Program-made: the position numbers and the translations under genes | The notes under the pieces: model-generated | Database searches by the model: none | Seen by the model: the letters and a program-made list of their open reading frames with translations, nothing else | What the model was told of the DNA's origin: nothing | Assembly (NCBI RefSeq): GCF_031583575.1 | Contig: NZ_CP134146.1 | Coordinates: 1,922,001 to 1,986,000, forward strand | Length of the DNA: 64,000 nt | From: Thalassotalea nanhaiensis | GTDB taxonomy: Bacteria > Pseudomonadota > Gammaproteobacteria > Enterobacterales > Alteromonadaceae | Reading direction: 5' to 3' | Shown here: one piece after another, positions 31,473 to 47,042 of the stretch | How positions within the stretch are numbered: position 1 is the stretch's first letter | How the letters are laid out: the number at the start of each line of letters is the position of its first letter

Positions 31473-31532
31473 AATGAGCCCCTTTAATATTAATGCTGAT
31501 AACCATGAATGTGGTTACCTTATATTCAAAGA

Positions 31533-31548
31533 AGCAATTAAAATGCCA
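31533..31548 (-). promoter_or_regulatory. Sigma-54-type promoter, pyruvyl transferase/GT2 unit
   Basis: Minus strand TGGCATTTTAATTGCT: GG and GC separated by exactly 10 bp, with TGGCA at -24 and TTGCT at -12. Predicted start near 31522, about 50 bp before the ATG at 31472. Confidence 0.75.
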
Positions 31549-31561
31549 CTTTGATACATCA

Positions 31562-32851
31562 CTAAACTGGTGAATAAGTAAGGGTTTCTTTGTTTGCCGG
31601 GCAGGGTTTTAAACTAAGGCCAATATAAATTAATGCCGGCCAAAAGATAAACGCTAAGATCTCTAGATTTTCATAAAAACTGTAAAGCCAAAAGACCACC
31701 ATTAACGCAAGAGCAATACGTGCATTTGCTCGCCAGAAACTAAGGTAAAGTAAATAACAGCTGGTAGCGAACATTGGAAGGGCAAGACATAATAGACCTA
31801 CAGATCCTTTAACATACAAAAGTCCATACCAGGTATGATGGGAGCCTATTTGCATACTCTCTACCACTTTTGGGCCCCGCTCAACGATACCATGTCCCCA
31901 TATAGGAGCTTCACTTTGCCAGCGTTGAATGGCGATATCTGCTAATGCTGCTCTTACCCGAGTTGAGTCAGGTCTTGATTGTTTAATTTGCTCAAAATGA
32001 TCAAACAGTAATTGCGAAATGGGATCACTAAGTATGATGAATATTGGTAGCATGAAGCCTAATAAAAGTAAGCTTTGCAGTTTCAATGCTTTATCAAAGA
32101 GTAGCGTGAAGGGGAGTAAGCAAATAAAAATAAACAGCCCGGCTCGCGATTGCGATAATAAAATCATTACTACACAACCTGCAATACCAAGAATTCGCCA
32201 ACGTTTGTTTTGTTCTTGCAGGCAAAGTACTAAATATATACAAGACATAAAGCCCGCAGCAGGTGCCCAAGGGCCAAAAAAACGCCACCTTGGTAATCCC
32301 GTTTCAGGGTTAATGCCAAATAAACTAACCGAAAAAAACTCAACACCAGGTCCGCCAATCGCTTTTAAAGGGGAAACATATACCTCTCCAGGTACACCTA
32401 CTAGATAAATGAGCAAAGTGACAATAGCAAAAATCAGGGTATAAAAGCTGACTTTACATATTGCACGAACTAACATTTTCTCATTTATATTGGCAAAATA
32501 ACCTATGAATATGAAAATAGGAAACAGGGCCCAACCTTTCATCCAACCTATTGTGGATTTGATTGTTTTTGAAAGTCCTAAGTCCCAGTTAGCGTGGGCT
32601 ATGAATAAAGTAAATAACATGATTAGCATCATTGCTACCCACAGCCAAATGATCGCAGGTACGACCTTCGGCTCTGTGATAGTATTTGGCCGTACATTCC
32701 ACCTTAATAGTAAAATTGATATCAACAACCAGCCAAGCAAACAGCCGGTAACATACAAGCTACCTGATAAAAAGAATAAATAAGTACAAGTGATGTTGTA
32801 CCAAACTAACTTTTGTTCAACAGTAGATTTGTTAAGTTGTGTCGTTGCCAT
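31562..32851 (-). CDS. O-antigen ligase/polymerase family (Wzy-like) membrane protein
   Basis: 429 residues with about ten hydrophobic helices. The Wzy_C-type signature is present: LLSQSRAGLFIF in a membrane segment, a long periplasmic loop (about 275-345) with GHGIVERGP and GSHHTWYGLLYVKGSVGL, then further helices. Such proteins polymerise or ligate undecaprenyl-linked repeat units at the periplasmic face. Next to wza/wzz genes a polymerase role is more likely than O-antigen ligase. Its start overlaps the end of the Wzz-like gene by about 45 bp. Confidence 0.85.
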   Translation of the reverse strand: MATTQLNKSTVEQKLVWYNITCTYLFFLSGSLYVTGCLLGWLLISILLLRWNVRPNTITEPKVVPAIIWLWVAMMLIMLFTLFIAHANWDLGLSKTIKSTIGWMKGWALFPIFIFIGYFANINEKMLVRAICKVSFYTLIFAIVTLLIYLVGVPGEVYVSPLKAIGGPGVEFFSVSLFGINPETGLPRWRFFGPWAPAAGFMSCIYLVLCLQEQNKRWRILGIAGCVVMILLSQSRAGLFIFICLLPFTLLFDKALKLQSLLLLGFMLPIFIILSDPISQLLFDHFEQIKQSRPDSTRVRAALADIAIQRWQSEAPIWGHGIVERGPKVVESMQIGSHHTWYGLLYVKGSVGLLCLALPMFATSCYLLYLSFWRANARIALALMVVFWLYSFYENLEILAFIFWPALIYIGLSLKPCPANKETLTYSPV

Positions 32852-34206
32852 ATAGCTACCAAAAAGAGAGTGATAAAAATGATCCCAATAAAACCTGCGG
32901 CTAAGGCAATAGCCGTTTTAGGACTGCTTGATTCTTGTGGAAACGATGCCACCGTAAGTTGTTGAATTACTGGGTAGGAAGCAAAAATATCAGCTTTACT
33001 TGCTTCTAAACGTGCTGCAGCAGAGGTATAAATCGCTTCAGCCATGTTAAAGTCATGCTCTAGACGCTCAAGCTCTGCAACTTCTCTGCTATAAATTTTT
33101 AATTTGTCACGTACAAAGGCAATTGATTGTTCAATATTAGCGAGCATTGCCTGCTTACCTTCTTTAATTGCACTTGAATCAATTAAATCGGCAAACAATT
33201 GGGCGCGGTTGTTTTGTTTTTTTAAATCTAGTGTATTAAAACTCTCGCTGACATGAATACCTATCATTTGCATGCTGCGCTGCTTTAAATGCGAATTTAC
33301 TAGATTTACCCGTTGTTGAGCAGCAACGACTTTAGGGTGGTTATTTCCCCAACGAGAGGAATAGGTTGTTAGTTCACCTAATGAATTATCAAGTTCGGTT
33401 AAATAGCTACTAAATTGGGCATCGGTTTGTAATTTAAAGACTTGCCCTGCTAACGACGGGGAAACACCTAAATTGAGACTCAATTTTCTAATGTAACTAT
33501 CGATTTGTTCCAGCTCTGATGATACCAGCATGTGTTTTTCATTTAGATCAGACAAGGCAATTACCATTTGCTCAAGCTGAATGCTGGCAACGACAAATGA
33601 ATTTTGTTGAAAGTCGACGATATTTCCGCGAGCAAGATTTAACTTGTTCTGATATTGAGTTAAAACAGCTTTAATACTTACATCACGTCTTAATACTTCA
33701 TCGGCGCGTAATCTATCAAGCTCTTGCTGCAGAGATTGATATAAAGCATTCGCTTTGCCATTAGCCTCTTTCGCAGTACGACCGCGGATTTTTATTGAAA
33801 TTATAGATGTTTGTTCGGTTAACTTGATAACCGGTGTGGCAAATTCACGCACACTAATGCCCATAATCAAAGCCGCGCGCTCTAATACAGAACGGCTGGT
33901 TAGCATTTCTTTATAATTGACTCTAGGGTTAAAGCTTGAAGAGCCATAGGGTGCAGATGTTTGCGAGACAACTTCACCAACTTCATTTAATTTTACGTTG
34001 CTACTAGTTCCTGTGCCTGGAAGTACCAGATCCATTTCACTGCTATATTTTGCCGGCATATTAAGGTAGATAAGAACCATAGCCAATACAGATAAGTAAC
34101 CAAAAATTGCGGCAACTAAATACGGCTTTTTAAATAAACGGTAAATATAAGCTCGAATTTTGTCTGTCGGGCTTATAATCATCATTTGGTAAGTCTTTTT
34201 AATCAT
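32806..34206 (-). CDS. Wzz/PCP-type chain-length determinant, no kinase domain
   Basis: 466 residues from the ATG at 34206; a TTG four codons upstream and ATGs at 34185/34182 are alternatives, none with a clear ribosome site. Two membrane segments (about 30-48 and 440-460) flank a long periplasmic coiled-coil region, the topology of polysaccharide co-polymerases. The C-terminal Walker-type BY-kinase of Wzc proteins is missing: after the second membrane helix only RHNLTNLLLNKS remains. The gene is sandwiched between wza-like and wzy-like genes in one operon. It probably sets chain length and links polymerase to export. Confidence 0.85.
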   Translation of the reverse strand: MIKKTYQMMIISPTDKIRAYIYRLFKKPYLVAAIFGYLSVLAMVLIYLNMPAKYSSEMDLVLPGTGTSSNVKLNEVGEVVSQTSAPYGSSSFNPRVNYKEMLTSRSVLERAALIMGISVREFATPVIKLTEQTSIISIKIRGRTAKEANGKANALYQSLQQELDRLRADEVLRRDVSIKAVLTQYQNKLNLARGNIVDFQQNSFVVASIQLEQMVIALSDLNEKHMLVSSELEQIDSYIRKLSLNLGVSPSLAGQVFKLQTDAQFSSYLTELDNSLGELTTYSSRWGNNHPKVVAAQQRVNLVNSHLKQRSMQMIGIHVSESFNTLDLKKQNNRAQLFADLIDSSAIKEGKQAMLANIEQSIAFVRDKLKIYSREVAELERLEHDFNMAEAIYTSAAARLEASKADIFASYPVIQQLTVASFPQESSSPKTAIALAAGFIGIIFITLFLVAIWQRHNLTNLLLNKS

Positions 34207-34221
34207 AATTAATGCCAATAT

Positions 34222-35523
34222 TTACAATAGTTTAAAGGGAATGATAAAGTCCGCAATGGTGTTAGCAATATCGCGAAGATTGGTTACATCAGAGTCATAA
34301 CATGCAACAGCATCATTGGGCATTAAATAAGGGTTAATGGATTCTCTATTTGATTGCCTCATGAGTTCTTCAATGGATCGTTCAATTACCTGTGTTTGTT
34401 TAGTTAAAGGGTTAACGCTTACAAGCACTACTTTTCGAGGAGCATTGGTCCATTGTTTGCCGCCCACACAATTAGCAGAAATTGCCGATTGTAATAAACG
34501 GGTACCATAGGGCACATTGGCAGAGTAACGTCCAACAGCGGCGTTTGAGTTACTCATCGCCGGTGCTATTAAGTTAGACATAAAGATACGAAAACCTTTT
34601 GGGGTTATTTGACTCGGTCTTACTAAGTTTGATTGAAAGCAACCTGTAGTAGGGACAATAATTCGGTCTCCGGTGATTAATGGGTAATCCGTAACAGGAT
34701 CGCCGGTAAGTATTCCTGTCATGTCAGCTTCTAAACGCCATCCTTTTCGAAGTAAAATTACTTGGTCAAGTTTTGCATCGGGCCTTACGCCAGAAGCAGC
34801 ACGCAATGCTTCTGATAGCAGTCGTTTGTTTGAATGATCGCCGTAACTAAAAGAGTCTTGTTCTAATTTTTGCGGTAACGTTTCATTGATCAAAACTCTA
34901 CCAGGGTTAAATACAGCCCCAGATACTGATACTTCTATTTCAGACCAGTGGAGAACTTGCAGTGTTACGTGGGCTGTAGCGGCTTTAAATATTTCTTTTT
35001 TGATAAATTCAATTGATATTTTTTCGGCAACAATATTGGTTGGTAGGCCAAGTACATCAATGGGCGGTAATAATGGAATATTAATAAGGCCATTACTATC
35101 GATGATGTAATTACCGTTAAAACCTTCACCATTTTCTATATTCACCGCTACCATATCCCCTGGGCTTAAGCCATTTAACAATGTTTGCTCATTAGCGTTT
35201 GGGAAGCTTGCAGGAGCGGCTTGTTTTAATTGCAGTGGTTTATCGATTATGTAATGTTCAGGGGCTGCAAAATCTTGAAACTTTTCACATGTTTTAGCCG
35301 TTGCAAACACATATTTAGCCGTACTTTGCTGACTAATATGAGTGCCATTAGCTTTTTCATTGCCATAAAAGTCTGGTTGCGAATGTTGGGGAGTATCTAA
35401 TGAGTCTGTTTGTGTGCAAGAAAACACAGAGGTAAGTAAAATGCTCACGATGGCTAAAAATATTAACTTGTTCTTGCAAAGGTGAGAGTTATGAAAACTC
35501 ATATAAAAAAACGAATAGAACAT
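34222..35523 (-). CDS. Wza-like polysaccharide export lipoprotein
   Basis: 433 residues from the ATG at 35523, which has AGGA 7 bp upstream; an ATG 11 codons earlier does not. Lipoprotein signal with lipobox SVFSC (C36). The Poly_export domain begins near LSPGDMVAVNIENGEGFNG, and an SLBB segment carries EVSVSGAVFNPGRV. Second SLBB-like and C-terminal parts follow (LVRPSQITPKGFRIF ... NPYLMPNDAVACYDS). It would form the outer-membrane export channel. First gene of the wza-wzz-wzy operon, with a near-consensus sigma-54 promoter and two enhancer-like palindromes upstream. Confidence 0.88.
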   Translation of the reverse strand: MFYSFFYMSFHNSHLCKNKLIFLAIVSILLTSVFSCTQTDSLDTPQHSQPDFYGNEKANGTHISQQSTAKYVFATAKTCEKFQDFAAPEHYIIDKPLQLKQAAPASFPNANEQTLLNGLSPGDMVAVNIENGEGFNGNYIIDSNGLINIPLLPPIDVLGLPTNIVAEKISIEFIKKEIFKAATAHVTLQVLHWSEIEVSVSGAVFNPGRVLINETLPQKLEQDSFSYGDHSNKRLLSEALRAASGVRPDAKLDQVILLRKGWRLEADMTGILTGDPVTDYPLITGDRIIVPTTGCFQSNLVRPSQITPKGFRIFMSNLIAPAMSNSNAAVGRYSANVPYGTRLLQSAISANCVGGKQWTNAPRKVVLVSVNPLTKQTQVIERSIEELMRQSNRESINPYLMPNDAVACYDSDVTNLRDIANTIADFIIPFKLL

Positions 35524-35583
35524 AATAAAATCCTGGTTGACCATATACATGGACATTGCATTAAAATGTTATATATCTAATGC

Positions 35584-35600
35584 AGCAATATAGGTGCCAA
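35584..35600 (-). promoter_or_regulatory. Sigma-54 promoter of the wza-wzz-wzy operon
   Basis: Minus strand TTGGCACCTATATTGCT, an essentially perfect match to TTGGCAC-N5-TTGCW. Predicted start near 35573, about 50 bp before the chosen ATG at 35523. The best match in the window. Confidence 0.9.
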
Positions 35601-35694
35601 CATTTAGTTATTGTGTTCAGCGCTTGCACAGGTACATGAATAGGTAGGGAAAATAAAGATCTTTAATGTTTTATTGAGAGTTAGAACATTAATA

Positions 35695-35709
35695 TTTGCA
35701 ATTTGCAAA
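35695..35709. promoter_or_regulatory. Enhancer-like palindrome, site 1
   Basis: TTTGCAATTTGCAAA, a perfect 7-1-7 inverted repeat (TTTGC-N5-GCAAA), centred about 129 bp upstream of the predicted wza transcription start. The same 10 fixed bases occur at 42448-42462. Confidence 0.7.
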
Positions 35710-35729
35710 ACCTTAAAAAACAAAAAGGA

Positions 35730-35744
35730 GTTGCAAAAAGCAAA
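35730..35744. promoter_or_regulatory. Enhancer-like palindrome, site 2
   Basis: GTTGCAAAAAGCAAA, 9 of 10 fixed positions of TTTGC-N5-GCAAA, centred 35 bp from site 1 and about 164 bp upstream of the predicted start. Confidence 0.6.
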
Positions 35745-35756
35745 TAGATAAGTGTT

Positions 35757-36476
35757 TTAGTATGCGCCTTTTGCGCTGATTACAGCAGGAATAGTTCCCA
35801 GTAAAATCTTCAAATCAAATAAAAATGATTGTTGACGAATGTACTGTAGATCTAATGATATTTGTTGAGTAAAGCTTGTATCGGCACGACCAGATATTTG
35901 CCATAGACCAGTCATACCAGGCTTACAATTTAAGCGTTTAAATTGATGTTGATTGTATTGGTAACTCTCACTTGCTAAGGCTGGTCTGGGGCCTACTAAC
36001 GACATATCACCGATAAGTACATTGTACAGTTGTGGTAGCTCATCAATAGAATATTTACGGATGAACTTACCTACAACAGTTACACGAGGATCATTAATAT
36101 ATTTTTTACAAATACCGTCACGATGGCTTAAATTTTCATCAACTTTAGGGGCAAATATTCGCATTGAACGGAATTTATAAAACTTAAAATGACGTCCATT
36201 TTCACCTATGCGGGTCTGACAAAAAAGCACCTTGCCGGGGTTTTCTATATATATAAATAAAGCGACCATGAGCAGTAAAGGTAAGCTTAATAATATTAAA
36301 CCTAACGCTATCAATTGCTGCAGTGGCATAGGGATACCAACATTTCGCTTTATATTTTTCGCTTTTTTATGATAAACATATTGCTTTGAAGAAACCGAAG
36401 AGCTTCGCCAGTATTGCATAACTAATTTTTCATTTAAAAATGGATAATACTGCTGAATGTTCATTTGATTATTCAT
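35757..36476 (-). CDS. Initiating undecaprenyl-phosphate sugar transferase
   Basis: 239 residues from the ATG at 36476, which has GAGG 6 bp upstream; an in-frame ATG at 36488 lacks a ribosome site. Bacterial sugar transferase (WcaJ/RfbP C-terminal type) that loads the first sugar-1-phosphate onto undecaprenyl phosphate. One membrane segment at about 55-80, then the family signatures LFCQTRIGENGRHFKFYKFRSM, KYSIDELPQLYNVLIGDMSLVGPRP and CKPGMTGLWQISGR. It lacks the multi-helix N-terminal half of WcaJ, so it is the short form. It lies 50 bp after the WecG-like gene. Confidence 0.92.
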   Translation of the reverse strand: MNNQMNIQQYYPFLNEKLVMQYWRSSSVSSKQYVYHKKAKNIKRNVGIPMPLQQLIALGLILLSLPLLLMVALFIYIENPGKVLFCQTRIGENGRHFKFYKFRSMRIFAPKVDENLSHRDGICKKYINDPRVTVVGKFIRKYSIDELPQLYNVLIGDMSLVGPRPALASESYQYNQHQFKRLNCKPGMTGLWQISGRADTSFTQQISLDLQYIRQQSFLFDLKILLGTIPAVISAKGAY

Positions 36477-36526
36477 GTTAAGCCTCATTTATATCTAATT
36501 ATTAATTGATGCGAGTTTACTCATTC

Positions 36527-37360
36527 TTATGGTTTACTTACGTGTGAGGGGGGATTAGAAATTGCCTTAGCCGCTTGTCTAAAAAGATAAGTTCTAAACA
36601 AAAATATTGGGTTACCTATTACGTATCGGTAAAACTTATTCTTAGGCTCTTGTAGTAATCTAAATAACCATTCCAGATTTAAATTTCGAAGCCAAAGGGG
36701 CGCACGGGGAATATTGCCGGAATAAAAATCAAATAAACCTCCTACCGCAAGGGCTGTATTACAGTGTAAGTATTCGGCATTGTTGGTTAACCAAATTTCT
36801 TGTAAAGGCGAGCCTAGCGCCACTAATAAAATATCGGCTTTTGATTGGTTAATTTTTGCAATGATACGTTTGTTATCATGTTTCTTAAAATAACCATGTT
36901 GATAGCCCGCAACCTTCAGTTTCGGGTAGGTTTTGTGTAAGCGTTTAGCTGCTTTACTCGCAACACCTGGGCTAGCTCCTAAAAAGAAAATTGATTTTCC
37001 TTCATTAGCCGCTTGTTCGCAGAGCTTTGGCAGCATGTCTGAGCCATTCACATTTTCCTGTATAGGTTCGTCTATATGGTTTGCTGCTAAACGCATGCCA
37101 ATACCATCTGCAAATAAACAGTCAGCTTGTTTTAGCGTTTGATAAAAATCGTTATATTTAAAGCTTAAATTTATTGAATGTGCATTTATGAAAAATCCTA
37201 GGTTTGGTTTTTCCGATGCTTTTGTATGAGATTTATTACTACTTAAGTTGAAGCGGTGAGAAATAACCCAATTTATGGCCTTGCTCATAGGAACGTTGTT
37301 TATGGGTAAATCAAATAATCGGCAAATATTATTATCACTACAGTTTGTTGAACTAGTCAT
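36527..37360 (-). CDS. WecG/TagA/CpsF family glycosyltransferase
   Basis: 277 residues from the ATG at 37360 (GAGG 6 bp upstream); a GTG four codons earlier is in frame. GT26 family: NAHSINLSFKYNDFYQTL, ADGIGMRLAANH, FFLGASPGVASKAAKRL, LLVALGSPLQEIWL and GGLFDFYSGNIPRAPLWLRNLNLEWLFRL region motifs. These enzymes add the second sugar to the undecaprenyl-linked first sugar, which fits the initiating transferase next to it. Preceded by a sigma-54-type promoter at 37411-37426. Confidence 0.92.
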   Translation of the reverse strand: MTSSTNCSDNNICRLFDLPINNVPMSKAINWVISHRFNLSSNKSHTKASEKPNLGFFINAHSINLSFKYNDFYQTLKQADCLFADGIGMRLAANHIDEPIQENVNGSDMLPKLCEQAANEGKSIFFLGASPGVASKAAKRLHKTYPKLKVAGYQHGYFKKHDNKRIIAKINQSKADILLVALGSPLQEIWLTNNAEYLHCNTALAVGGLFDFYSGNIPRAPLWLRNLNLEWLFRLLQEPKNKFYRYVIGNPIFLFRTYLFRQAAKAISNPPSHVSKP

Positions 37361-37410
37361 GGCAAGCCTCACGTTTATTTTAAGGACCTAATTAGGCGAT
37401 AATTCATTTC

Positions 37411-37426
37411 AGCAATAACTATTCCA
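37411..37426 (-). promoter_or_regulatory. Sigma-54-type promoter of the wecG-like unit
   Basis: Minus strand TGGAATAGTTATTGCT with GG-N10-GC spacing and a perfect TTGCT -12 box. Predicted start near 37400, 40 bp before the ATG. A degenerate enhancer-like site TTTGCAAATTGATAA lies at 37480-37494, about 87 bp upstream of the predicted start. Confidence 0.65.
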
Positions 37427-37554
37427 GTTTTTGTTATTTCTTAAAATACAATGGCTTAGCGTATGTTGTGGATGGCTGTTTTGCAAATTGATAATACATT
37501 TTTCTCAATTTGAAAATTAACCTAATATTCTCTTAGTTAATCTTGAAGGATTGA

Positions 37555-38322
37555 TTAGGGTTTGTGAGATGATTGAAATTGTGGGTAGTTAACGATTACC
37601 TTTTGTGTCTCTCGTTGAAAGACATCAGAGGCTAGAATATGGTTTACACCTTGTTTTACAAACACATACTTGACCAACAACCCAAGACTTCGTCGTAATA
37701 CATGATGTGCCAATGTTTTCAGTTTTGAGGTACGCATAGGACCATAGCTAAAGTGTCTAATATGATCATTTAGTTTTTCATCAAATGTATTATTCCAGCG
37801 ATGATGCAACACTTTGATAAAGTTAACTTGTTTACTAAAGTGAATGATATGGCCATTTTCACCCCAGCCTGTTGAATCGATACTTGGTAAGTGCTGACGG
37901 CGAGATAGTATCAATTTATCTAACCAGTTTATTAATGCCCCCGCTTTTTTAGCTATCATAACTCCACTGTTAAAACGTCCGGTATAACCATTGGCCATGT
38001 AAAGATATTTATCATCTACGAAAATTTCATCTATAGATGGGCAATCCTCATTAATGAGGGCATCAGCATCGACAAACATAACATTCTGGTAGCCATTAAC
38101 TAATGCTGCTTTTAACAAAACCAACTTTAACCAACAGCACTCCATGCCTAAGTTTGATATTGATGGCTTGGAAATTACCACATATTCATAATTGTTCGTT
38201 TTTGCGTAAGCCTGATGGCTTAATAAGTACTCTTGATAAAGCCATTGATAGCCATTTAAAGCGATACTAAATACCAGTGTTTTTTGAGGAGGAGTTTGTG
38301 AGTTTTGAATTTGACTCATCAT
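37555..38322 (-). CDS. GT34-like galactosyl/mannosyltransferase
   Basis: 255 residues. Resembles the GMA12/MNN10 (GT34) type of GT-A glycosyltransferases: LVFSIALNGYQWLYQEYLLSHQAYA, CCWLKLVLLKAALVNGYQNVMFVDADALI with the DxD motif, YMANGYTGRFNSGVMIAK and DSTGWGENGHII. Soluble, with no signal peptide. AAGG lies 6 bp before the ATG. Transcribed as a single gene divergent from the LruC gene, each with its own sigma-54-type promoter. Donor and acceptor unknown. Confidence 0.8.
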   Translation of the reverse strand: MMSQIQNSQTPPQKTLVFSIALNGYQWLYQEYLLSHQAYAKTNNYEYVVISKPSISNLGMECCWLKLVLLKAALVNGYQNVMFVDADALINEDCPSIDEIFVDDKYLYMANGYTGRFNSGVMIAKKAGALINWLDKLILSRRQHLPSIDSTGWGENGHIIHFSKQVNFIKVLHHRWNNTFDEKLNDHIRHFSYGPMRTSKLKTLAHHVLRRSLGLLVKYVFVKQGVNHILASDVFQRETQKVIVNYPQFQSSHKP

Positions 38323-38368
38323 GATTTACCTTTATGAAAATGGCTATCTTTCTTATTTATTAAATATA

Positions 38369-38384
38369 AGCAATAAATGTTCCG
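38369..38384 (-). promoter_or_regulatory. Sigma-54-type promoter of the GT34-like gene
   Basis: Minus strand CGGAACATTTATTGCT: GG-N10-GC with a perfect TTGCT -12 box. Predicted start near 38358, about 36 bp before the ATG at 38322. Confidence 0.65.
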
Positions 38385-38447
38385 TATAACTAAAGTACGT
38401 AGTTTGCTAAACCCAATACGTATGTATTTAATTTTTTTCAAATTAAA

Positions 38448-38464
38448 AAAGATTTTTAATCTTT
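38448..38464. promoter_or_regulatory. Perfect inverted repeat between divergent promoters
   Basis: AAAGATT-TTT-AATCTTT, 7 bp arms, in the 265 bp gap between the divergent GT34-like and LruC genes. The neighbouring TTTTCAAATTAAAAA (38434-38448 region) is a loose relative of the TTTGC-N5-GCAAA sites. It may be a regulator site. Confidence 0.35.
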
Positions 38465-38532
38465 CTTTATTTACATGCCGGATAAAGTCTTGTGGCTGAT
38501 GTAAGGTGATGATTTTATGGAGTTAAAAAATA

Positions 38533-38549: not shown

Positions 38550-38588
38550 TAAAGTAAGTAGAAAGTTATGATGGGTAAGGAAAGCGTT

Positions 38589-40265
38589 ATGAAACCATGC
38601 AAACACAACTTACTAAATACGCAAATAGCAAACACTCTATCAACCATAATACTATTACTGTTATGTTTTTTTGTATTCGTTTCTGTTTATGTCCAAGCCG
38701 TAACCCAAGATGAAAACGGCAATTATATCTGGTCCTTTCTTTCTGGGGCACCTTGGCCACAAGGTTATGATCAAAGTACCGGTAAACCCGATGATTTGAT
38801 TTGGGCGAAAGATGAGTACCCAGCTGATTTTTTCACCCTGATCAATAATGCTTTACCCGAAAGTGAAGTAAATGAGGCGTTTTTAACTGGTGACGCTGGC
38901 TCGACTATCACTATAAAACCAGACGTAGAAGAAGCAGAAATATTTATTACTTTTATCCACGAGGGAGCAGGTTATAAAAACTCATTTGGCTTCTTTGTAT
39001 TTGATCCTGAAAATCCACCAACGAGTCCAGAACAAGTCAACGAAATTATCATATTTCCTAATTTGTCTTTTCCGCATTTAACGAACGGACATAGAGTAAG
39101 CTTAGGAACCTTCTCCGGCGGCACGAGTATTGGTTTTTTCTTAGCAGCCAATGCCTTTTGGTATGACACTGGGGTAAAACCAACAAAAGTGCCTTATTAC
39201 TATTCCCTTACTAATTTAAATGATGAACCCAATTCGACTTTACAACAACATATGGTCGCTTTATACGATCAAGGCGTTGAAGAAGTTATTTTGGGTTTTG
39301 AAGATTTACCAAGGTCATGGGGGGATAATGACTTTAATGATGCTGTATTTAGTGTCAAGGTTACCCCTGCCTCCGCTTTACAATTAAATGATTTAATAGA
39401 AATTCCAGATGTTAATGACTCTGATGCCGATGGAATTCTTGATGATGCTGATGAGTTTCCTAATGACTATCATCGGGCATTTAGTTCCTTTTACCCTAAC
39501 GAACAATCTTGGGTAACCTTAGCTTTTGAGGATAATTGGCCTCATATAGGTGATTACGACTTGAATGATTTAATCATTAGAGAGCGACTGCAAGTGATTT
39601 ATAATAGTGATACACAGATCACTGGTTTTAAAATCAGCGGCTTTATTGATGCTCGTGGTGCTGCTTATCACAATGGCTTTGCTTTACGTTTATTGGATAT
39701 TCCCGCCTCAGCATTTTTAAACAGCACATTGAGTATTGGTGGGCAATCGTATGAAAAGACTGCAGAGCAATATCAACAGGATTTGGTAATAAGTTTATGG
39801 AACGATACCCATGTATTCACCGAAACGGGTGGTTCAGGAAAGTGCAAGCATTTTAATACTGTTGCAGAGTGTAATACATTTCCATCAGTGCCATTCGAGT
39901 TAGATGTTAATTTTGCTACCGTTGTTGATAGCTTACTACATTCATCATTGGACTTTTTTATTTACCGTACAAACAATAGGTCTAGAGAAATTCATTTTGC
40001 TGGATACCCACCTACAGACCTCTTTGATCTCACCCAGTTTGGTAAAGGCGATGACAGCTCTGTTGTGGAGCATGATCGTTATTATAAAACAGACAATAAT
40101 CTGCCATGGGCTATTAAAATTGATACTACCTGGAGTTACCCAAAAGAGTACATCGACATAATATGGGCATATCCTGTATTTGAAACCTGGGTTGAAAGTA
40201 GTGGCAGTGAAGCGCCTGATTGGTACATAAACCCAGGTAGACCACAACACACCTTTAACCCCTAA
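38589..40265 (+). CDS. Secreted DUF4114 / LruC-domain protein
   Basis: 558 residues from the ATG at 38589, which has AAGGA 7-8 bp upstream; an in-frame ATG at 38568 does not. Signal peptide with a strong hydrophobic core, cleavage likely after VQA (about 37). The N-terminal half is DUF4114-like, ending in LGFEDLPRSWGDNDFNDAVF (about 236-255). A calcium-binding-like Asp loop, DVNDSDADGILDDADEFPND, follows from residue 274. The LruC-type C-terminal domain begins AFEDNWPHIGDYDLNDLII (about 312) and continues to the end. The FED...GD-D-ND motif thus occurs twice. Predicted surface or matrix protein; no sorting signal or catalytic site was seen. Paired with the lipoprotein 15 bp downstream. Confidence 0.85.
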   Translation: MKPCKHNLLNTQIANTLSTIILLLLCFFVFVSVYVQAVTQDENGNYIWSFLSGAPWPQGYDQSTGKPDDLIWAKDEYPADFFTLINNALPESEVNEAFLTGDAGSTITIKPDVEEAEIFITFIHEGAGYKNSFGFFVFDPENPPTSPEQVNEIIIFPNLSFPHLTNGHRVSLGTFSGGTSIGFFLAANAFWYDTGVKPTKVPYYYSLTNLNDEPNSTLQQHMVALYDQGVEEVILGFEDLPRSWGDNDFNDAVFSVKVTPASALQLNDLIEIPDVNDSDADGILDDADEFPNDYHRAFSSFYPNEQSWVTLAFEDNWPHIGDYDLNDLIIRERLQVIYNSDTQITGFKISGFIDARGAAYHNGFALRLLDIPASAFLNSTLSIGGQSYEKTAEQYQQDLVISLWNDTHVFTETGGSGKCKHFNTVAECNTFPSVPFELDVNFATVVDSLLHSSLDFFIYRTNNRSREIHFAGYPPTDLFDLTQFGKGDDSSVVEHDRYYKTDNNLPWAIKIDTTWSYPKEYIDIIWAYPVFETWVESSGSEAPDWYINPGRPQHTFNP

Positions 40266-40280
40266 AATAGGAATAATATT

Positions 40281-40808
40281 ATGTTAAACATGAAGAGCAA
40301 TTTTTCAAAGCGGATTTTAATTATCAGTATTTTAGCTCATGGTTTAATTGGTTGTGGCGAGGGCAGCAGTAAAGCAACAGCAGTAAATGAAGTCCCACCC
40401 CAATCTGAAACCCAAGCCAGTATTGATCATAGCCCTAACCCTGAAAAGCTTGCTACAGTTGCTGAAACAGCAAATGATTTATACGTTGAAGAAGATTTTG
40501 ACTTTCAAAGTTTTCGTACGGTAACGATTGATATTCATGTTCAATCCTATGCCGGAGACAATATCGATAATGCATTACTTTATGTTTCATCCATTCCTGA
40601 TGACATTATGGAGTTGGATGATTCTCGACTGATGACAAAGTCATTAATTGCAGTATCAAAAACAGATAATAATGGACAAACACTGATTACACTTGAGGTA
40701 CCACAAATCGTAAATAACCTACTTATAGAAGTAAACTCACTTGGGGTAGATAATAAGCACATAGTAGATATTAGCCAGCAAGATTATTATGTGCTTTACT
40801 TAAACTAA
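40281..40808 (+). CDS. Small lipoprotein paired with the LruC protein
   Basis: 175 residues. Lipoprotein signal with lipobox LIGC (C25), then a low-complexity linker (about 27-65) and a beta-rich C-terminal part (TVTIDIHVQSYAGDNIDNALLYVSS ... NGQTLITLEVPQ) resembling a carboxypeptidase-regulatory-like or Ig-like fold. It starts 15 bp after the LruC gene and must be co-transcribed. I know no characterised homologue. An anchoring or chaperone role for its partner is a guess from context only. Confidence 0.75.
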   Translation: MLNMKSNFSKRILIISILAHGLIGCGEGSSKATAVNEVPPQSETQASIDHSPNPEKLATVAETANDLYVEEDFDFQSFRTVTIDIHVQSYAGDNIDNALLYVSSIPDDIMELDDSRLMTKSLIAVSKTDNNGQTLITLEVPQIVNNLLIEVNSLGVDNKHIVDISQQDYYVLYLN

Positions 40809-40833
40809 CAGCAGTGAGCATCTCTCATATGAT

Positions 40834-40906
40834 TTAAAGTCCTTTAAACCTTAATTTAATTGAGCACTGTGCGTACTCTATTTTTACCATTATAAAACCG
40901 TACGCA
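40834..40906. promoter_or_regulatory. Two palindromes upstream of the sigma-54 response regulator
   Basis: TTTAAAG-TC-CTTTAAA (about 40833-40848) and a spaced repeat TGCGTAC (40870-40876) / GTACGCA (40900-40906). They lie in the 151 bp between the lipoprotein gene and the regulator gene. No GG-N10-GC element is present there, so the regulator probably uses another sigma factor. Confidence 0.4.
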
Positions 40907-40959
40907 GTTGTCTGATACAAATCTACGTTTTGTGATGTTATAAACGTTAAGAGAGGAAT

Positions 40960-42438
40960 ATGGACTTGCCAAAGAGTAGTGTGTTATTTGTAGATGATGA
41001 GTCTATGATATTAGACGCTTTGAAGCGGGTTTGCCGTAAACTCTATGCGACAGTGTTTACTGCCCATGGCGGGCACGAAGCACTTGAAATTATCAAGAAC
41101 AATCAAATTGATATCATCGTATCTGACATTAATATGCCTAATATGGATGGCATCACATTTCTAGAAAAAGTATCTAAAATTTCTCCTGAAAGTATTCGTA
41201 TCATTTTAACCGCTTATACCGATGTAAATAATACTTTAGCGGCCATTAATGAGGGGAAAGTTTGGGGTTACCTCAATAAGCCTTGGGATAACACCCATTT
41301 AATTAATACCCTGAATCAAGTGATAGAATTTCGTAAAATCATGGTTGAACGTACGTTATTAAAAGAGTTTAAGCCTAGAGATAGTTTCCCCTCTATCGAT
41401 AAATTTTCTGGTTTTGTTGGTAGCAGCGCCAAGATGCAGAATATATACCAAACGATCAAACAGTGTGCGCCATGTAAAGCTTCTGTATTTATTACCGGGC
41501 CAAGTGGTAGCGGTAAAGAGGTGGCAGCGCAAGCTCTACATGAATTGAGTAGACGAAAAGAAGGCAGTTTTATTGCGTTAAATTGCGCGGCAATACCGGC
41601 TGAATTAATGGAGTCAGAAATATTTGGCCATGTAAAAGGTGCTTTTTCGGGCGCTCATTCAAATCGAGATGGCGCGGCAACGTTAGCACATAATGGAACT
41701 CTGTTTTTAGATGAAATAGCTGAAATGGATATTATATTGCAAGCTAAATTACTGCGGTTTATCCAAACCGGTACGTTTAGTCGTGTAGGCAGTGGTAAAG
41801 TTGAAAAAGTTGATGTTCGTTTTATTTCGGCGACAAATAGAGAGCCTGACAAGGCAATCGCCGAAAACAAATTACGGGAAGATTTATTTTACCGGCTTAA
41901 TGTATTGCCAATCGCTTTACCTCCGCTAAATGAACGGGGCAGTGATGTAGTGCAAATTGCCGAAGTCTTTTTGCAAAAATATAATCAAATTGAAGAAAGA
42001 AATTACCAAGGCTTTACCCCATTGGCTAAAAAGTTACTTCGTAAATATCAATGGCCCGGAAATGTAAGACAGTTACAAAACTTGATCTATAGCGCGGTAG
42101 TTCTCGCGAATGAGCCATTAATAGATGAACATATTTTTGCTAGTATATTAAACCTTTCCGATGAGCAATTATCATTATTACTTGAAAGTGAAGACGTTGC
42201 ACAGATACATGAAAAAGCGACGGATAGTAATATCCCTATTGGTGAATGTGTAGTGACTGATGGCAAGAGCTTTCAAGATAATAGTAAAATTTATACCTTA
42301 GCGAGCGTCGAGCGTAAAACCATAGAGCATGCATTAAGCCAATGTAATGATAATGTAGTAAAAGCCGCAGAAGCACTAGGCGTTAGTCCATCAACCTTGT
42401 ACAGAAAAATTCAACAGTGGCAAGACAGCGCAAGTTAA
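40960..42438 (+). CDS. Sigma-54-dependent response regulator (REC-AAA+-Fis HTH)
   Basis: 492 residues. Receiver domain 7-120 with phospho-acceptor D56 (IIVSDINMPNMDG) and K107 in NKPWD. AAA+ domain about 150-385: Walker A GPSGSGKE (180-187), Walker B LFLDE (248-252) and the sigma-54-contact loop as GAFSGA (227-232), where most family members have GAFTGA. Fis-type HTH at the C-terminus (ALSQCNDNVVKAAEALGVSPSTLYRKI). It sits in the middle of an EPS cluster whose transcription units carry sigma-54-type promoters, so it is the obvious activator. The histidine kinase at 45139-46491 is the likely partner. A perfect TTTGC-N5-GCAAA site begins 10 bp after its stop. Confidence 0.93.
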   Translation: MDLPKSSVLFVDDESMILDALKRVCRKLYATVFTAHGGHEALEIIKNNQIDIIVSDINMPNMDGITFLEKVSKISPESIRIILTAYTDVNNTLAAINEGKVWGYLNKPWDNTHLINTLNQVIEFRKIMVERTLLKEFKPRDSFPSIDKFSGFVGSSAKMQNIYQTIKQCAPCKASVFITGPSGSGKEVAAQALHELSRRKEGSFIALNCAAIPAELMESEIFGHVKGAFSGAHSNRDGAATLAHNGTLFLDEIAEMDIILQAKLLRFIQTGTFSRVGSGKVEKVDVRFISATNREPDKAIAENKLREDLFYRLNVLPIALPPLNERGSDVVQIAEVFLQKYNQIEERNYQGFTPLAKKLLRKYQWPGNVRQLQNLIYSAVVLANEPLIDEHIFASILNLSDEQLSLLLESEDVAQIHEKATDSNIPIGECVVTDGKSFQDNSKIYTLASVERKTIEHALSQCNDNVVKAAEALGVSPSTLYRKIQQWQDSAS

Positions 42439-42447
42439 ATATGGATG

Positions 42448-42462
42448 TTTGCATTTTGCAAA
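42448..42462. promoter_or_regulatory. Enhancer-like palindrome upstream of wzx
   Basis: TTTGC-ATTTT-GCAAA, a perfect match to the fixed positions of 35695-35709, centred about 189 bp upstream of the predicted wzx transcription start. Further TTTGC half-sites follow at 42475-42479 and 42487-42491. The order of words around it (TTTGC, T-run, GCAA, CTCTTTTTGTTTT) parallels the reverse strand of 35695-35745. Confidence 0.65.
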
Positions 42463-42616: not shown

Positions 42617-42633
42617 CTGGAACCTTTCTTGCA
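42617..42633 (+). promoter_or_regulatory. Sigma-54-type promoter of the wzx-GT2 unit
   Basis: CTGGAACCTTTCTTGCA: GG-N10-GC spacing, TGGAAC at -24 and TTGCA at -12. Predicted start near 42644, 28 bp before the ATG. Confidence 0.75.
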
Positions 42634-42671: not shown

Positions 42672-43964
42672 ATGCAAAAGGTAAGAGAAAGTACCGCAAC
42701 ACTTATAGCCTTACTACGCGATTATAAAAAACATTTAACGAAATTGGTCAGTAACTCTTTATGGCTACTGAGCTCAGATATACTTGGAAAAGGCTCTAGA
42801 TTAATCACCATTATCGTTTTAGCGGCGACATTATCACCGAGTTTATACGGCAGTGCCATGCTAGCGCTTGTATGTCATGATATTTTGCGTTTATTACTGC
42901 GCTCTGGCTCAGGCAATCAAGTAATTAACTGTAGTGATGAGCAACTGCCAGTCATTGCAAAAAATGCCCTGTCTTTGCAATGGATTATATGTATTACGTT
43001 ATTCTTTATGCAGTTGCTTTTTGCACAAATGATGGCAAGTTTCTTTGAGCAGAATGTGATAGCAAAAATGCTTACGGTTATGGCCATAAGCTATCTTTTA
43101 TTACCCGTGGTAAGTATTCGAGTATTTATATTACAACGTAATAATCAAATGGCACACGTTGGTATTTGCAGTGGTGTTTGTTTACTTATTGAAAATTTAA
43201 GTATCGCTGTGCTTGTTTATAAAAGTGGTGATGTTATGGCAATTGCCTATGGAAAGCTCATTTACTCTGTTGCCTGGGCAGTTATTTTTAGTTTTGTTGA
43301 AAGTAAAAGTTATGGATTTGGCTTTAATCTTTCGGTAATTAAATCATTAGTTTTTGCGTCAACAAAAATGATGTTTGCGGAATCTGCAAAAGGAATACAG
43401 CAACATGTCGATATTTTTATGGCCGCTAAATTATTATCTCCAGAGTCGTTTGGTTTGTACAGTTTTGCTAAAAGTGCAGGTATAGGTATCACCCAGTCAA
43501 TAAATTGTGCATTTACCAACGCTTTATATCCACAACTCTGTAGTTTCAATAGACAAAACAACTTACAGCAAAGAAGCCGAAGCATATATTGGTTAACGCT
43601 ATTGTTGGCAAGTCTATTTGTTGTTCAAGCCGCCGCCGCATTTATATATATGCCGTTATTTTTTTCAGAACAATGGTTGCTCGCTATTCCAATTACCAGT
43701 GTTCTATGTTGTTCAGCCTGTACCACCATTTTTTTAGACGTTAAGTGTTGTATGTTTCGCGCCCTTTATTTTTATAAAGCAGAAAGCTGTTCGCGTGTGG
43801 CTATCTTACTCTGTTATGTGCTTGCAATAGTGATCATACAGCCAGATTCAGCAATGGGATTAGCGCTAAGCATGTTAATACTTTCAACGATTAACTTATT
43901 CGTGTTTATCCCATTTAAGCGGTTATATAACTTACCAAAAATTGAGATTAAACGTATTCAATAG
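42672..43964 (+). CDS. Wzx-like polysaccharide flippase
   Basis: 430 residues with about twelve hydrophobic segments. Oligosaccharide flippase (MOP superfamily) pattern: NSLWLLSSDILGKGSRLITIIVLAATLSPSLYG at the N-terminus, then SAKGIQQHVDIFMAAKLLSPESFGLYSFA in the middle. It would flip undecaprenyl-linked repeat units to the periplasm for the Wzy-like polymerase. It lies downstream of the sigma-54 regulator and 42 bp upstream of a GT2 gene, forming a plus-strand EPS unit opposite the wza operon. Confidence 0.88.
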   Translation: MQKVRESTATLIALLRDYKKHLTKLVSNSLWLLSSDILGKGSRLITIIVLAATLSPSLYGSAMLALVCHDILRLLLRSGSGNQVINCSDEQLPVIAKNALSLQWIICITLFFMQLLFAQMMASFFEQNVIAKMLTVMAISYLLLPVVSIRVFILQRNNQMAHVGICSGVCLLIENLSIAVLVYKSGDVMAIAYGKLIYSVAWAVIFSFVESKSYGFGFNLSVIKSLVFASTKMMFAESAKGIQQHVDIFMAAKLLSPESFGLYSFAKSAGIGITQSINCAFTNALYPQLCSFNRQNNLQQRSRSIYWLTLLLASLFVVQAAAAFIYMPLFFSEQWLLAIPITSVLCCSACTTIFLDVKCCMFRALYFYKAESCSRVAILLCYVLAIVIIQPDSAMGLALSMLILSTINLFVFIPFKRLYNLPKIEIKRIQ

Positions 43965-44006
43965 TGAACAATTTGTTTTACTCATTAATGTATAAGAGGT
44001 TCCATT

Positions 44007-45086
44007 ATGTCAAATGCTATCACTCATAAACAGTTCAAAAAACCGCAAGTTTCTGTCATTATTCCAATGTTTAATGTCGAAAAATACATCAATAAATGTA
44101 TTAGTTCGGTTTTAGATCAAACGTTTAATGATTTTGAAGTTATCTGTGTTGATGACGGCTGTAAAGACAGCACCTTAGCAAAGCTTAAGCAATTTAACGA
44201 TCCTAGAATTCGACTAATACAACAAGTAAACCGAGGGTTGGCAGGGGCAAGAAATACTGGCATTAGCCATGCGAAAGGGCAATACATAGCTTTATTAGAT
44301 GCAGATGATTTTTGGCATGAGGATAAACTCGCTAAACATGTAAGTCACCTTAATAGTCGGCCAAGTGTTGGTATCAGCTATTGCTCATCTTTATTTGTTA
44401 ATGATGATGATAAACCTTTAGGAATTGGCCAGTTTCCGAAATTGAAAAATATCCGTCGACGTGATGTTTTATGTCGAAATCCTATTGGGAATGGCTCTGC
44501 ACCAGTGATGCGTAAAGCAATGCTTATTGATTATGTAAATTGTCTGGAAAAAGGGTTATGTAGCAAGACTTTCCGTAACAAAGGGAGAGAGAAATGTCAT
44601 CAAGTTCGTACTGAATACTTTTATGAAAAATTGAAACAGTCAGAAGATATTGAATTTTGGCTTCGACTTAGTTTGAGCACAAGTTGGAAATTCGAAGGAA
44701 TAGGGCAAGCGTTAACATTTTATAGAATAAACCCACATGGTCTATCGAGTAATTTAGAAGCTCAATTTTCTTGTTGGAAAGCCGCGTTAGCGTTAAATAA
44801 AGCGTCTCAGCCTAGCTTTTTTAATCGTTATTATTCGTTAGCGAAAGCATATCAGTTTCGCTACTTTGCACGACGAGCAATTCAATCTGGTAAAAGTGAT
44901 ACTGCTTGGTTGTATATGGGTAAAGCGCTAAAAACCAATTTTAGAATTATTTATCAAGAGCCGTTAAGAACGTTGAATACATTATTATGCACAGTGTTGT
45001 TAAAACTATTACCTTATAACGTTTATAAATCTCTTGAGAAATATATCATGGGGCAAATGTGTAAGTTGAAGGCTGAGGTAAAATAA
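44007..45086 (+). CDS. Family 2 glycosyltransferase
   Basis: 359 residues. GT-A motifs: VSVIIPMFNVEKYINKCISSVLDQTF, ICVDDGCKDST, LAGARNTGISHAKGQYIALLDADDFW and, later, ESEDIEFWLRL-like QSEDIEFWLRLSL. Cytoplasmic sugar transferase for EPS repeat assembly; donor unknown. AGAGG lies before the ATG. The C-terminal third is helical and basic, possibly membrane-associated. Co-transcribed with wzx. Confidence 0.9.
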   Translation: MSNAITHKQFKKPQVSVIIPMFNVEKYINKCISSVLDQTFNDFEVICVDDGCKDSTLAKLKQFNDPRIRLIQQVNRGLAGARNTGISHAKGQYIALLDADDFWHEDKLAKHVSHLNSRPSVGISYCSSLFVNDDDKPLGIGQFPKLKNIRRRDVLCRNPIGNGSAPVMRKAMLIDYVNCLEKGLCSKTFRNKGREKCHQVRTEYFYEKLKQSEDIEFWLRLSLSTSWKFEGIGQALTFYRINPHGLSSNLEAQFSCWKAALALNKASQPSFFNRYYSLAKAYQFRYFARRAIQSGKSDTAWLYMGKALKTNFRIIYQEPLRTLNTLLCTVLLKLLPYNVYKSLEKYIMGQMCKLKAEVK

Positions 45087-45138
45087 GCCTATACGATCTT
45101 AATGTCAGATTGTTTTTAGTCTTGTTTTATTTATTGTA

Positions 45139-46491
45139 CTAGTAACACGCTAACTGTTTACTAACGTTTGGTAAGAAAATGGTGAAAGTTGTACCTGTTT
45201 CATCGGAGGCGACGGTTAATCTACCTCGGTGTTCTTCCTCAATGATTTTGTAACTAATCGATAGTCCAAGTCCAGTTCCTTGGCCAGCAGGTTTCGTGGT
45301 GAAAAATGGCAGGAATATGTGCGATAAATTTTCAGAAGGAATACCTATACCGTTATCACTAATATTAATAAATACACCTTGATTATCGGCGTAAGTTTCA
45401 ATGTCAATATTGCCTTCTTTTTTACAAGCCTGACTAGCATTAAGAATAATATTCATAAATACTTGATTTAACTTGCCTATATTACCTTGTACTAAAGGCA
45501 AGTCGGTTAAATTAAGGTTTACCTTACAGTGTGATTTAATTTGGCTGTTAACAATATTCAATGTAGTTCTAATCCCTTCATTGATGTCAACATTACACAA
45601 CTCCTCATCTTTAGAGCGAGCAAATCTATTAAGGTCACTCACTATTCCTTTTGCGACGGTTAAGCCTTGTATTGTTGATTGCGTAAGGCCTGAAAGATCG
45701 TTAACTACATGGCAATAGCTTTTATCCCTTAATGGCAGTTTGTGTTGCTCTGCTATATTTGGGTTTTCTATAATGGCCTGATGGGCAGATTTAATATCAG
45801 TAATATAATCTTCTAAAATTGCCAAGTTACTTAATGAGTAGGCCAATGGGTTGTTTATTTCGTGGGCAATACCAGCAGATAACATGCCAACCGATGCCAT
45901 TTTTTCTGATTGAATTAAGGTTTGTTGATTGAGTTTTAAATCGGCAATGCTTGCTTGTAATTCGCTATTGGCACGTTTTAATCTGATTTGTGTGGTTTGC
46001 AGATTTCTTTGATAAATAGAACTTGCGATCCGAGGAGCAATAATATTAGCAACTATTTGCAATAACTCTTGTTCGGATTTTGTATAATTATTTATAAATT
46101 TAGATTCAGAGTCGATAACCGCAATTGTTTCACCTTCATAGATTACTGGCACTGTAAGCTCTGAGCGGCCTGAATATTGATCAAATATATAGCGAGAGTC
46201 AAGCATAGTGTCAGGTACTATCTCTGCTACCTTAGTTTCTGCTACGGTACCAACAATGCCTTGCCCCATAGGAATTTCTATTCTTTCATAGATTTGCCTA
46301 TCTTTAGGGTTTTTAATACCAAATGCTGAAACTTGAATTAATACTTGCTCTGCTCGTAGGTAAATAACACAATCTTCAAACTCCATGATATCACCTACGC
46401 CTTGAGCGATAGACCATAGCAGGTCATCTAAACTTGCTTGCTCAAGCATAGCCAATGCAAAATCATTAATTTTCTTCACACCTACTGACAT
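45139..46491 (-). CDS. GAF-domain sensor histidine kinase
   Basis: 450 residues, no membrane segments. GAF domain about 15-155 (IPMGQGIVGTVAETK, SELTVPVIYEGETIAVIDSES), coiled linker 160-195, dimerisation/phosphoacceptor helix with H210 in SAGIAHEINNPLAYSLSNL, and the HATPase domain with N-box LNQVFMNIILNASQA, SDNGIGIP, FFTTKPAGQGTGLGL. The H-box is of the NtrB/HPK4-like type that often pairs with sigma-54 response regulators. It is the nearest orphan kinase to the regulator at 40960-42438, so they are probably partners. It lies convergent to the GT2 gene and divergent from the subtilase. The ligand of the GAF domain is unknown. Confidence 0.92.
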   Translation of the reverse strand: MSVGVKKINDFALAMLEQASLDDLLWSIAQGVGDIMEFEDCVIYLRAEQVLIQVSAFGIKNPKDRQIYERIEIPMGQGIVGTVAETKVAEIVPDTMLDSRYIFDQYSGRSELTVPVIYEGETIAVIDSESKFINNYTKSEQELLQIVANIIAPRIASSIYQRNLQTTQIRLKRANSELQASIADLKLNQQTLIQSEKMASVGMLSAGIAHEINNPLAYSLSNLAILEDYITDIKSAHQAIIENPNIAEQHKLPLRDKSYCHVVNDLSGLTQSTIQGLTVAKGIVSDLNRFARSKDEELCNVDINEGIRTTLNIVNSQIKSHCKVNLNLTDLPLVQGNIGKLNQVFMNIILNASQACKKEGNIDIETYADNQGVFINISDNGIGIPSENLSHIFLPFFTTKPAGQGTGLGLSISYKIIEEEHRGRLTVASDETGTTFTIFLPNVSKQLACY

Positions 46492-46819
46492 AGTTACTAC
46501 CTATTAGATGTTAGATTACCCATTATTAAGCATAGTTTAATTTTTGCAAGGTAACCAATTTAGTTGAGTTATAAGTTAACTAAATAAGGACATTTAAAGT
46601 GGGCAGTTATTAAAGTTAAGGGAGGAATGTATATTTTTATTGTGTAGGCAAAAATAGAAAGTGGGGCGCTAGCCTTTTAAACCTGGCATTGTTACATAAT
46701 CGTATTATGAACATAGTTTGCTGATAACTTTTGAAATTAATTTCTAGCTGTACCTTATGATTGAATACTTTTATAAAACTAGTAGATAAAAGGTATTAGT
46801 TAACTAATTGAGTATGTTA

Positions 46820-46922
46820 TTCGCCATTTTCTTCTGAATTCGCCAAGTTGTATGCTCTTCCAATCTTGTCGTCATTTATTTCTTTTGTTCGTCATATTTT
46901 TGTCGCCATTATTTTTCTTTTG
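46820..46922 (+). repeat. Imperfect direct repeats of a TCGYCATTTTTCTTTTG-like word
   Basis: TTCGCCATTTTCTTCTG (46820), TCGTCATTTATTTCTTTTG (46869), TTCGTCATATTTTTG (46889) and TCGCCATTATTTTTCTTTTG (46903). They lie about 95-200 bp upstream of the predicted subtilase transcription start. The placement suggests activator binding, but the word differs from the TTTGC-N5-GCAAA sites. Confidence 0.5.
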
Positions 46923-46990
46923 AAAAGGGTGGAAACCTAAGTTTTATTAGAAGCTAAGTAAAATGGGTTTTGTAACCCAATTGTTATTTG

Positions 46991-47007
46991 TTGGCATGAT
47001 TCTGGCT
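46991..47007 (+). promoter_or_regulatory. Sigma-54-type promoter of the subtilase gene
   Basis: TTGGCATGATTCTGGCT: perfect TTGGCA at -24, GG-N10-GC spacing and TGGCT at -12. Predicted start near 47018, 25 bp before the ATG. Confidence 0.7.
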
Positions 47008-47042
47008 TTAGTAGAGGTAGATTAATTTAAACGGAATAATTT

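Follow-up and report, generated by a model that had tools for sequence, protein, structure and literature searches.

Two adjacent predicted sigma-54 modules in Thalassotalea nanhaiensis: an exopolysaccharide/LruC regulon and a Trp-repeat subtilase

The analysis presented here concerns a 15.5-kb stretch (31522-47018) within a window of 64,000 nucleotides from the single-contig 4.31-Mb genome of Thalassotalea nanhaiensis, in which sigma-54-type promoter elements precede genes of an exopolysaccharide (EPS) cluster and a Trp-repeat subtilase. Domain and profile searches identify the EPS cluster as being of the Wzx/Wzy type. On the minus strand (29321-38322) it encodes a GT2 glycosyltransferase, a pyruvyl transferase (PyrT), Wzy, a Wzc-like protein, Wza, a sugar-phosphate transferase (PGT), WecG, and orf255, the last without a Pfam match. 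The plus strand carries the gene for LruC (38568-40265), a putative matrix protein with DUF4114 and DUF4842/LruC domains, the gene for the response regulator RR54 (40960-42438), and those for the Wzx flippase and a further GT2 (42672-45086). The cluster also includes orf175 and, on the minus strand, a GAF histidine kinase gene (45139-46491). After the EPS cluster come, all on the plus strand, the subtilase gene (47043-48860) and, within 48994-58372, genes for a hybrid sensor kinase, a REC-GGDEF-EAL protein (53520-55298), and a PAS-GGDEF-sigma-54 protein (55319-58372). The subtilase contains six-residue AHLWPN repeats, encoded by 18-bp tandem repeats at 48477-48818; the unit differs among congeners, where WPN, WPQ, WPD, and LWG forms are found.

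The original prediction had placed a GG-N10-GC element before each of seven transcription units, and all seven are present at the positions and in the orientations given there. On the minus strand these are the elements of PyrT (TGGCATTTTAATTGCT, 31533-31548, matrix score 14.6), wza (TGGCACCTATATTGCT, 35584-35599, 17.3), the WecG-type glycosyltransferase (37411-37426, 12.6), and orf255 (38369-38384, 13.6), and on the plus strand those of lruC (38534-38549, 11.3), wzx (42618-42633, 15.2), and the subtilase (46992-47007, 14.3). A TTGCW box at -12 occurs in five of the seven, as had been claimed, the exceptions being LruC (CTCGCT) and the subtilase (CTGGCT). Counted from the end of the element, the distance to the start codon is 18 to 60 bp, so that the predicted spacing of 25 to 60 bp stands apart from LruC, which at 18 bp falls below it. 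The sigma-54 matrix used for scoring has a maximum of 20.2 and was built after the seven sites were known, before the relatives were consulted. No element of at least 11 was detected upstream of the RR54 and GAF-kinase genes, which lie inside the stretch and did not figure in the original prediction. In genome G005, a sigma-54-like site (L042:6970-6985, 14.3) is situated 172 bp before the GAF-kinase gene.

A single matrix match is in itself little proof, because 26 matches of at least 11 occur over the whole 64 kb, coding DNA included, where 14.5 are expected (1.8-fold). Nor does the pattern TGGMAYNNNNNTTGCW show any overall excess in the genome, with 21 matches compared with 27 for the reversed control. 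Its distribution is uneven: four of the 21 matches fall inside this 15.5 kb, which makes up 0.36% of the genome, and ten, the four local ones included, are intergenic by a mechanical open reading frame (ORF) call. As a plausibility check, the intergenic matches at genome positions 207121 and 3085979 lie about 0.7 kb or less from sigma-54-activator-type genes. It follows from the weak raw counts that position and conservation alone carry the argument. The original prediction had proposed comparing matrix matches per intergenic base inside and outside the cluster, and within the window this comparison comes out in its favor: the 1,783 intergenic bp of the stretch contain seven matches of at least 11 bits, and the remaining 6,127 intergenic bp contain none. 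Intergenic DNA was defined here by counting 47 ORFs as genes after removal of four overlapping ORFs. Both strands were scanned, and the seven matches are precisely the seven elements, each in sense orientation.

Conservation was analyzed in 44 loci retrieved through LruC homologues together with up to 10 kb of flanking DNA, a set that includes several near-identical P. luteoviolacea strains and one locus (L056) on the same contig as that of genome G012. Of seven EPS genes, 36 of the 44 loci have four or more, and an RR54 with 48% identity or more is present in 26; gene content is broadly kept and gene order is variable. When the best sigma-54 match within 300 bp upstream is scored with a threshold of 11, sites precede LruC in 30/42, PyrT in 23/36, Wza in 17/33, and orf255 in 16/36 orthologues. 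The internal controls Wzc (0/35) and RR54 (0/26) have none, and among other genes GT2b (1/25) and orf175 (2/32) have few. Reversed-sequence controls gave 0 to 3 sites per gene and antisense controls 0 to 4, except for LruC (13) and orf255 (23), whose high antisense values arise because the two genes face each other across one divergent region. In G005, with an LruC 95% identical to the one studied here, each of the six EPS genes considered is preceded by a site, and the same 16-mer is retained at wzx. In G012 (LruC 73%), sites are found at LruC, WecG, Wza, and PyrT, and the scores of orf255 (8.9) and Wzx (8.3) are lower. G017, which has a stretch of the cluster without an LruC match, shows sites before orf255 and Wza only. 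Orthologous genes of other Alteromonadales and of further gammaproteobacteria thus carry such sites as well, to an extent that differs from gene to gene.

The position of these promoters does not appear to be fixed. GT2a has no sigma-54 site of at least 8 upstream in the window, and one of 16.9 in G012. Together with four loci from three Paraglaciecola and one Alteromonadaceae (L062, L077, L082, and L083), G012 carries a site scoring 16.3 to 18.7 at a distance of 60 to 82 bp ahead of the GT2a match, which suggests that promoters move between genes.

The upstream regions of the EPS promoters carry a further element, the LuxO-type upstream activating sequence (UAS) TTGCA-N3-TGCAA. In the window, the palindrome TTGCAATTTGCAA (35696-35708) has the top UAS score and lies 96 bp upstream of the wza element, with a second copy containing one mismatch at 35731-35743, and the palindrome TTGCATTTTGCAA (42449-42461) lies 156 bp upstream of the wzx element. 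Degenerate forms are found 22 bp apart upstream of WecG (37481-37493, score 12.8, two mismatches; 37503-37515, score 14.3) and in the lruC/orf255 divergent region (38436-38448, score 11.8, a value that about 2% of random 300-bp windows reach). The PyrT gene itself contains two UAS-like sites (30750-30762 and 30770-30782, scores 12.5 and 16.3), which occupy the same position in G005 and G012, and their coding location makes this conservation hard to interpret. With a UAS matrix built from 43 sites of other genomes only, the eight best scores of the 64 kb all fall within the EPS cluster at 30750-42461, the two inside PyrT among them, and the ninth is at 58097. Eight exact palindromes exist in the genome, and only the two described here have a sigma-54 site of at least 11 bits within about 300 bp; the best score near the other six is 10.9, inside a gene.

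The same association is seen in the relatives. Exact copies of the palindrome number 23 in the 44 loci, 17 of them upstream of Wza (5), Wzx (8), or LruC (4). Among 92 promoters chosen for a site of at least 9.5 in 37 non-redundant loci, a UAS with at most one mismatch is present upstream of LruC in 17/26, orf255 in 12/17, Wza in 18/24, Wzx in 4/5, and WecG in 2/5 cases, the LruC and orf255 counts overlapping through their shared region; first-order shuffles yield on average 0.1 to 1.2 UAS-bearing promoters per gene. The distances between enhancer and promoter favor 62-64, 73-74, 84, 93-94, and 103-107 bp, with off-phase values at 68, 77, 78, 100, and others. The phasing resultant is 0.57, flat for periods of 10.0 to 11.1 bp and reached by 0 of 5,000 nulls, and after collapse to 31 gene-distance classes it is still 0.51 (p 0.002). 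Helical phasing of this kind is to be anticipated where the activator and the polymerase have to be turned toward each other on the DNA.

A candidate to read these enhancers is encoded within the cluster, namely the sigma-54 response regulator to which the original prediction had drawn attention. RR54 is an NtrC-type response regulator in which the receiver, sigma-54 AAA+, and Fis-type helix-turn-helix domains were all found. Its best NCBIfam model is LuxO (NF041946) at 462.8 bits, below the cut-off of 800, and LuxO is also its best solved relative. Eleven LuxO residues are described as needed for DNA binding in passages of PMC11407668, and in a hand alignment based on spacing, RR54 has seven of these identical, three conservatively replaced, and one different. 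The LuxO-like recognition helix reads SPSTLYRKI; SPSTLYRK is present in all 26 orthologues displayed, and 11 further activator-type proteins of this genome lack it. In the loop that contacts sigma-54, GAFSGA replaces GAFTGA in all 26 locus orthologues as well as in G005, G012, and G017. Four LuxO-like proteins that are more distant were also compared, and three of them have GAFTGA and the fourth neither form. GAFSGA may be a clade signature of RR54 orthologues. The genome has one rpoN gene. As no sigma-54 promoter of at least 11 lies upstream of RR54 in the 26 loci, RR54 can be present beforehand.

The subtilase presents a different picture. A site of at least 11 precedes it in 10 of 13 orthologues, its own included, and occurs in seven congeners (G003, G004, G006, G008, G009, G010, and G011) in which no LruC match was found at E <= 1e-20, G003 being 78% complete. 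The best RR54 matches in these seven reach only 35-40% identity. No LuxO-type enhancer was detected at the subtilase promoter here or in its orthologues, apart from a weak match in L127 (11.4). Instead, five TCGYCA direct repeats (46821-46908, plus strand; starts at 46821, 46840, 46869, 46889, and 46903) form the densest plus-strand cluster of this motif in the window and are proposed as the subtilase enhancer. Nine of the ten subtilase promoters with a site have, between 88 and 211 bp upstream, two to five such repeats in a common orientation. In total there are 32 sense and three antisense copies, where first-order shuffles lead one to expect 0.9 (with at most 6 in 500 shuffles); the motif was first seen by eye in some of the same related promoters, so that the excess is descriptive. 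Eight genome matches of TCGYCATWWTTTT were examined with their flanks, and only at the subtilase does a repeat cluster precede a good sigma-54 site.

Palindromes are the usual enhancers of sigma-54 activators. The polar TCGYCA repeats, an apparent enhancer of another kind, lie upstream of the subtilases in L124-L130 and L133 as well as in the window. Homologues of the subtilase, hybrid kinase, REC-GGDEF-EAL, and PAS-GGDEF-sigma-54 genes are consecutive in seven of eight congener stretches, and the eighth stops at a contig end. The protein encoded at 55319-58372, a fusion of PAS, GGDEF, and sigma-54 AAA+ domains conserved with the subtilase in congeners, is the likely regulator of the subtilase promoter.

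We assign a high probability to the seven -24/-12 promoters being real, and from the elements and genes described we consider it probable that they belong to two adjacent sigma-54 modules, an RR54-controlled EPS/LruC module and a separate subtilase module. The RR54 regulon would comprise the six EPS/LruC promoters; in this genome, wza and wzx have the clearest enhancers, and PyrT is the weakest case. It can be envisaged that phosphorylated RR54 binds the TTGCA-N3-TGCAA enhancers and loops onto E-sigma-54 at the -24/-12 elements, which would turn on wza, wzx, WecG, orf255, lruC, and probably PyrT. In the second module, the subtilase promoter may be read through the TCGYCA repeats, most likely by the PAS-GGDEF-sigma-54 activator. 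An EPS-wide regulon under RR54, as originally predicted, is supported by the LuxO-type enhancers and their phasing, the conservation, the recognition helix, the single rpoN gene, and the presence of RR54 in 11 of 11 genomes searched.

Several observations weigh against this interpretation. The matrix frequencies were set by hand, and few orthologues of Wzx (5/25) or WecG (5/37, L056, which is G012, among them) have an upstream site of at least 11, while sites are found before GT2a (7/34), Wzy (4/35), and PGT (4/36), which were counted as operon-internal. The LruC and orf255 site counts are not independent, given their shared divergent region, and 12 of 42 LruC upstream regions score below 11 with start codons taken as called. 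PyrT lacks a UAS within 300 bp in this genome and has one in only 1 of 15 cases elsewhere, and for LruC and orf255 the UAS that is strong in relatives has three mismatches here. Moreover, 12 of 27 non-redundant UAS loci have no RR54 of at least 48% identity in the fetched stretch. Eleven genomes of RR54-less loci, representing nine of those 12 together with L057 and L096, were searched, and each contains exactly one match, near full length and 51-55% identical (E <= 1e-90), so that all nine searchable loci have RR54 elsewhere in the genome. For L062, L067, L077, L083, and L087, the coordinates place this match 0.6 to 5.4 kb outside the stretch that was fetched, with the contig number agreeing.

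These findings also bear on the other explanations that could be considered. The view that RR54 drives all seven promoters as one regulon, the subtilase included, draws on the adjacency of subtilase and EPS cluster here and in G005, with sigma-54 sites at both. It is nevertheless unlikely, as the subtilase has no RR54-type UAS, keeps its site in the seven congeners without an LruC match and with only distant RR54 matches, and has other repeats and its own linked activator. The proposal that all units are switched on together has unequal support even within the EPS part, in view of PyrT and the degenerate UAS of LruC and orf255, and is not supported for the subtilase. Still less probable is a scheme in which the promoters are real and are activated by another enhancer-binding protein, for example an NtrC-type nitrogen regulator. 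Eleven further proteins of the genome do match the LuxO model over the AAA+ part, and UAS also occur at loci whose fetched stretch has no RR54, but the LuxO-like recognition helix is found in none of the eleven, and RR54 is present once in each of the 11 genomes whose stretch had none. Chance, with AT-rich intergenic DNA supplying GG and GC at the right spacing, would fit the mere 1.8-fold excess over the window and a TGGMAYNNNNNTTGCW count that does not exceed its reversed control. This explanation is disfavored to the point of being very improbable by the seven-to-zero split in intergenic DNA, by conservation alongside negative control genes, and by the phased UAS.

Within the preferred two-module arrangement, position suggests which kinase may act on RR54. 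An H-NOX match beside a kinase lies near the cluster in 11 of the 44 loci (L056, L060, L061, L062, L069, L077, L082, L083, L087, L090, and L097), with the HNOB domain confirmed in four and the rest assigned by similarity; in L060, L061, and L069, the H-NOX, kinase, and RR54 genes stand in that order on one strand. No H-NOX match was found in the window, where the GAF kinase follows the EPS genes instead. The linked sensor kinase, GAF-type here and H-NOX-coupled in some relatives, is probably the kinase of RR54.

Taken together, these results could describe a previously unreported, syp-like EPS/LruC regulon common to marine Alteromonadales and further gammaproteobacteria, with a regulator forming its own clade (GAFSGA loop, LuxO-type operator) and with exchangeable sensors that include a nitric-oxide H-NOX kinase, and beside it, in this genome, another new sigma-54 module, one where polar TCGYCA direct repeats would allow a PAS-GGDEF-sigma-54 activator to govern a surface subtilase with Trp repeats. 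For this joint reading as a whole our confidence is tentative, somewhat short of even. The two-module arrangement would make of a list of promoter look-alikes two regulons whose regulators, operators, and targets are named and can be tested for each gene. Its EPS part would give a large group of marine bacteria other than Vibrio a biofilm switch of the syp kind, which in some of them probably responds to nitric oxide, and its subtilase part would link a fusion activator of the GGDEF-sigma-54 type with a definite candidate promoter and operator. The locus also cautions that neighboring sigma-54 promoters need not form one regulon.

Among the literature matches listed, with subscription journals mostly outside coverage, there was no paper on this cluster, and in none of them was LruC joined with the other searched terms. 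Wrinkling is attributed to cellulose and cyclic di-GMP in passages of PMC8919034. A general tie of sigma-54 to EPS and exterior genes is described in parts of Francke 2011 (PMC3162934), the main text of which contains no occurrence of Colwellia, Alteromonadales, or Shewanella. In the PEP-CTERM-related PrsK/PrsR system (Haft 2006, PMC1569441), as far as the passages cited describe it, an EPS-linked sigma-54 response regulator and kinase have a regulon in which an upstream motif and a -24/-12 motif precede surface-protein genes. The present cluster resembles that arrangement in its EPS-linked sigma-54 response regulator, its kinase, and its pairing of an upstream motif with a -24/-12 motif. RR54 differs from PrsR, scoring 345 bits against the TIGR02915 cut-off of 502.6, and LruC has no PEP-CTERM match at E 0.001. 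To Vibrio LuxO, whose UAS is reported as TTGCAWWWTGCAA in parts of PMC10162802, the likeness would lie in the UAS motif and in the recognition helix of RR54, which match by sequence; unlike LuxO, RR54 falls below the family cut-off and is encoded in an EPS cluster.

The closest parallel may be the syp locus of V. fischeri. Passages of PMC10804989, PMC10162802, and PMC12369376 describe syp as an EPS locus comprising four operons, all of which have a sigma-54 promoter together with SypG sites, report that syp, bmp, and bal genes need SypG, and give the authors' proposal of a separate promoter for sypF-sypG; in PMC12369376, HnoX-HahK is described as feeding SypG-dependent biofilm formation. The cluster studied here shares with syp, as there described, the multi-operon EPS locus, sigma-54 promoters with activator sites (PyrT lacking a nearby one), an activator encoded in the locus, and, in some relatives, a probable H-NOX-kinase input. 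It is distinguished by its LuxO-type TTGCA-N3-TGCAA enhancers in place of TTCTCANNNTGMDWN and by the GAFSGA loop of its regulator. WecG, the pyruvyl transferase, and LruC are, to our knowledge, further differences from the syp gene content. By analogy, then, the EPS part may work like syp of V. fischeri.

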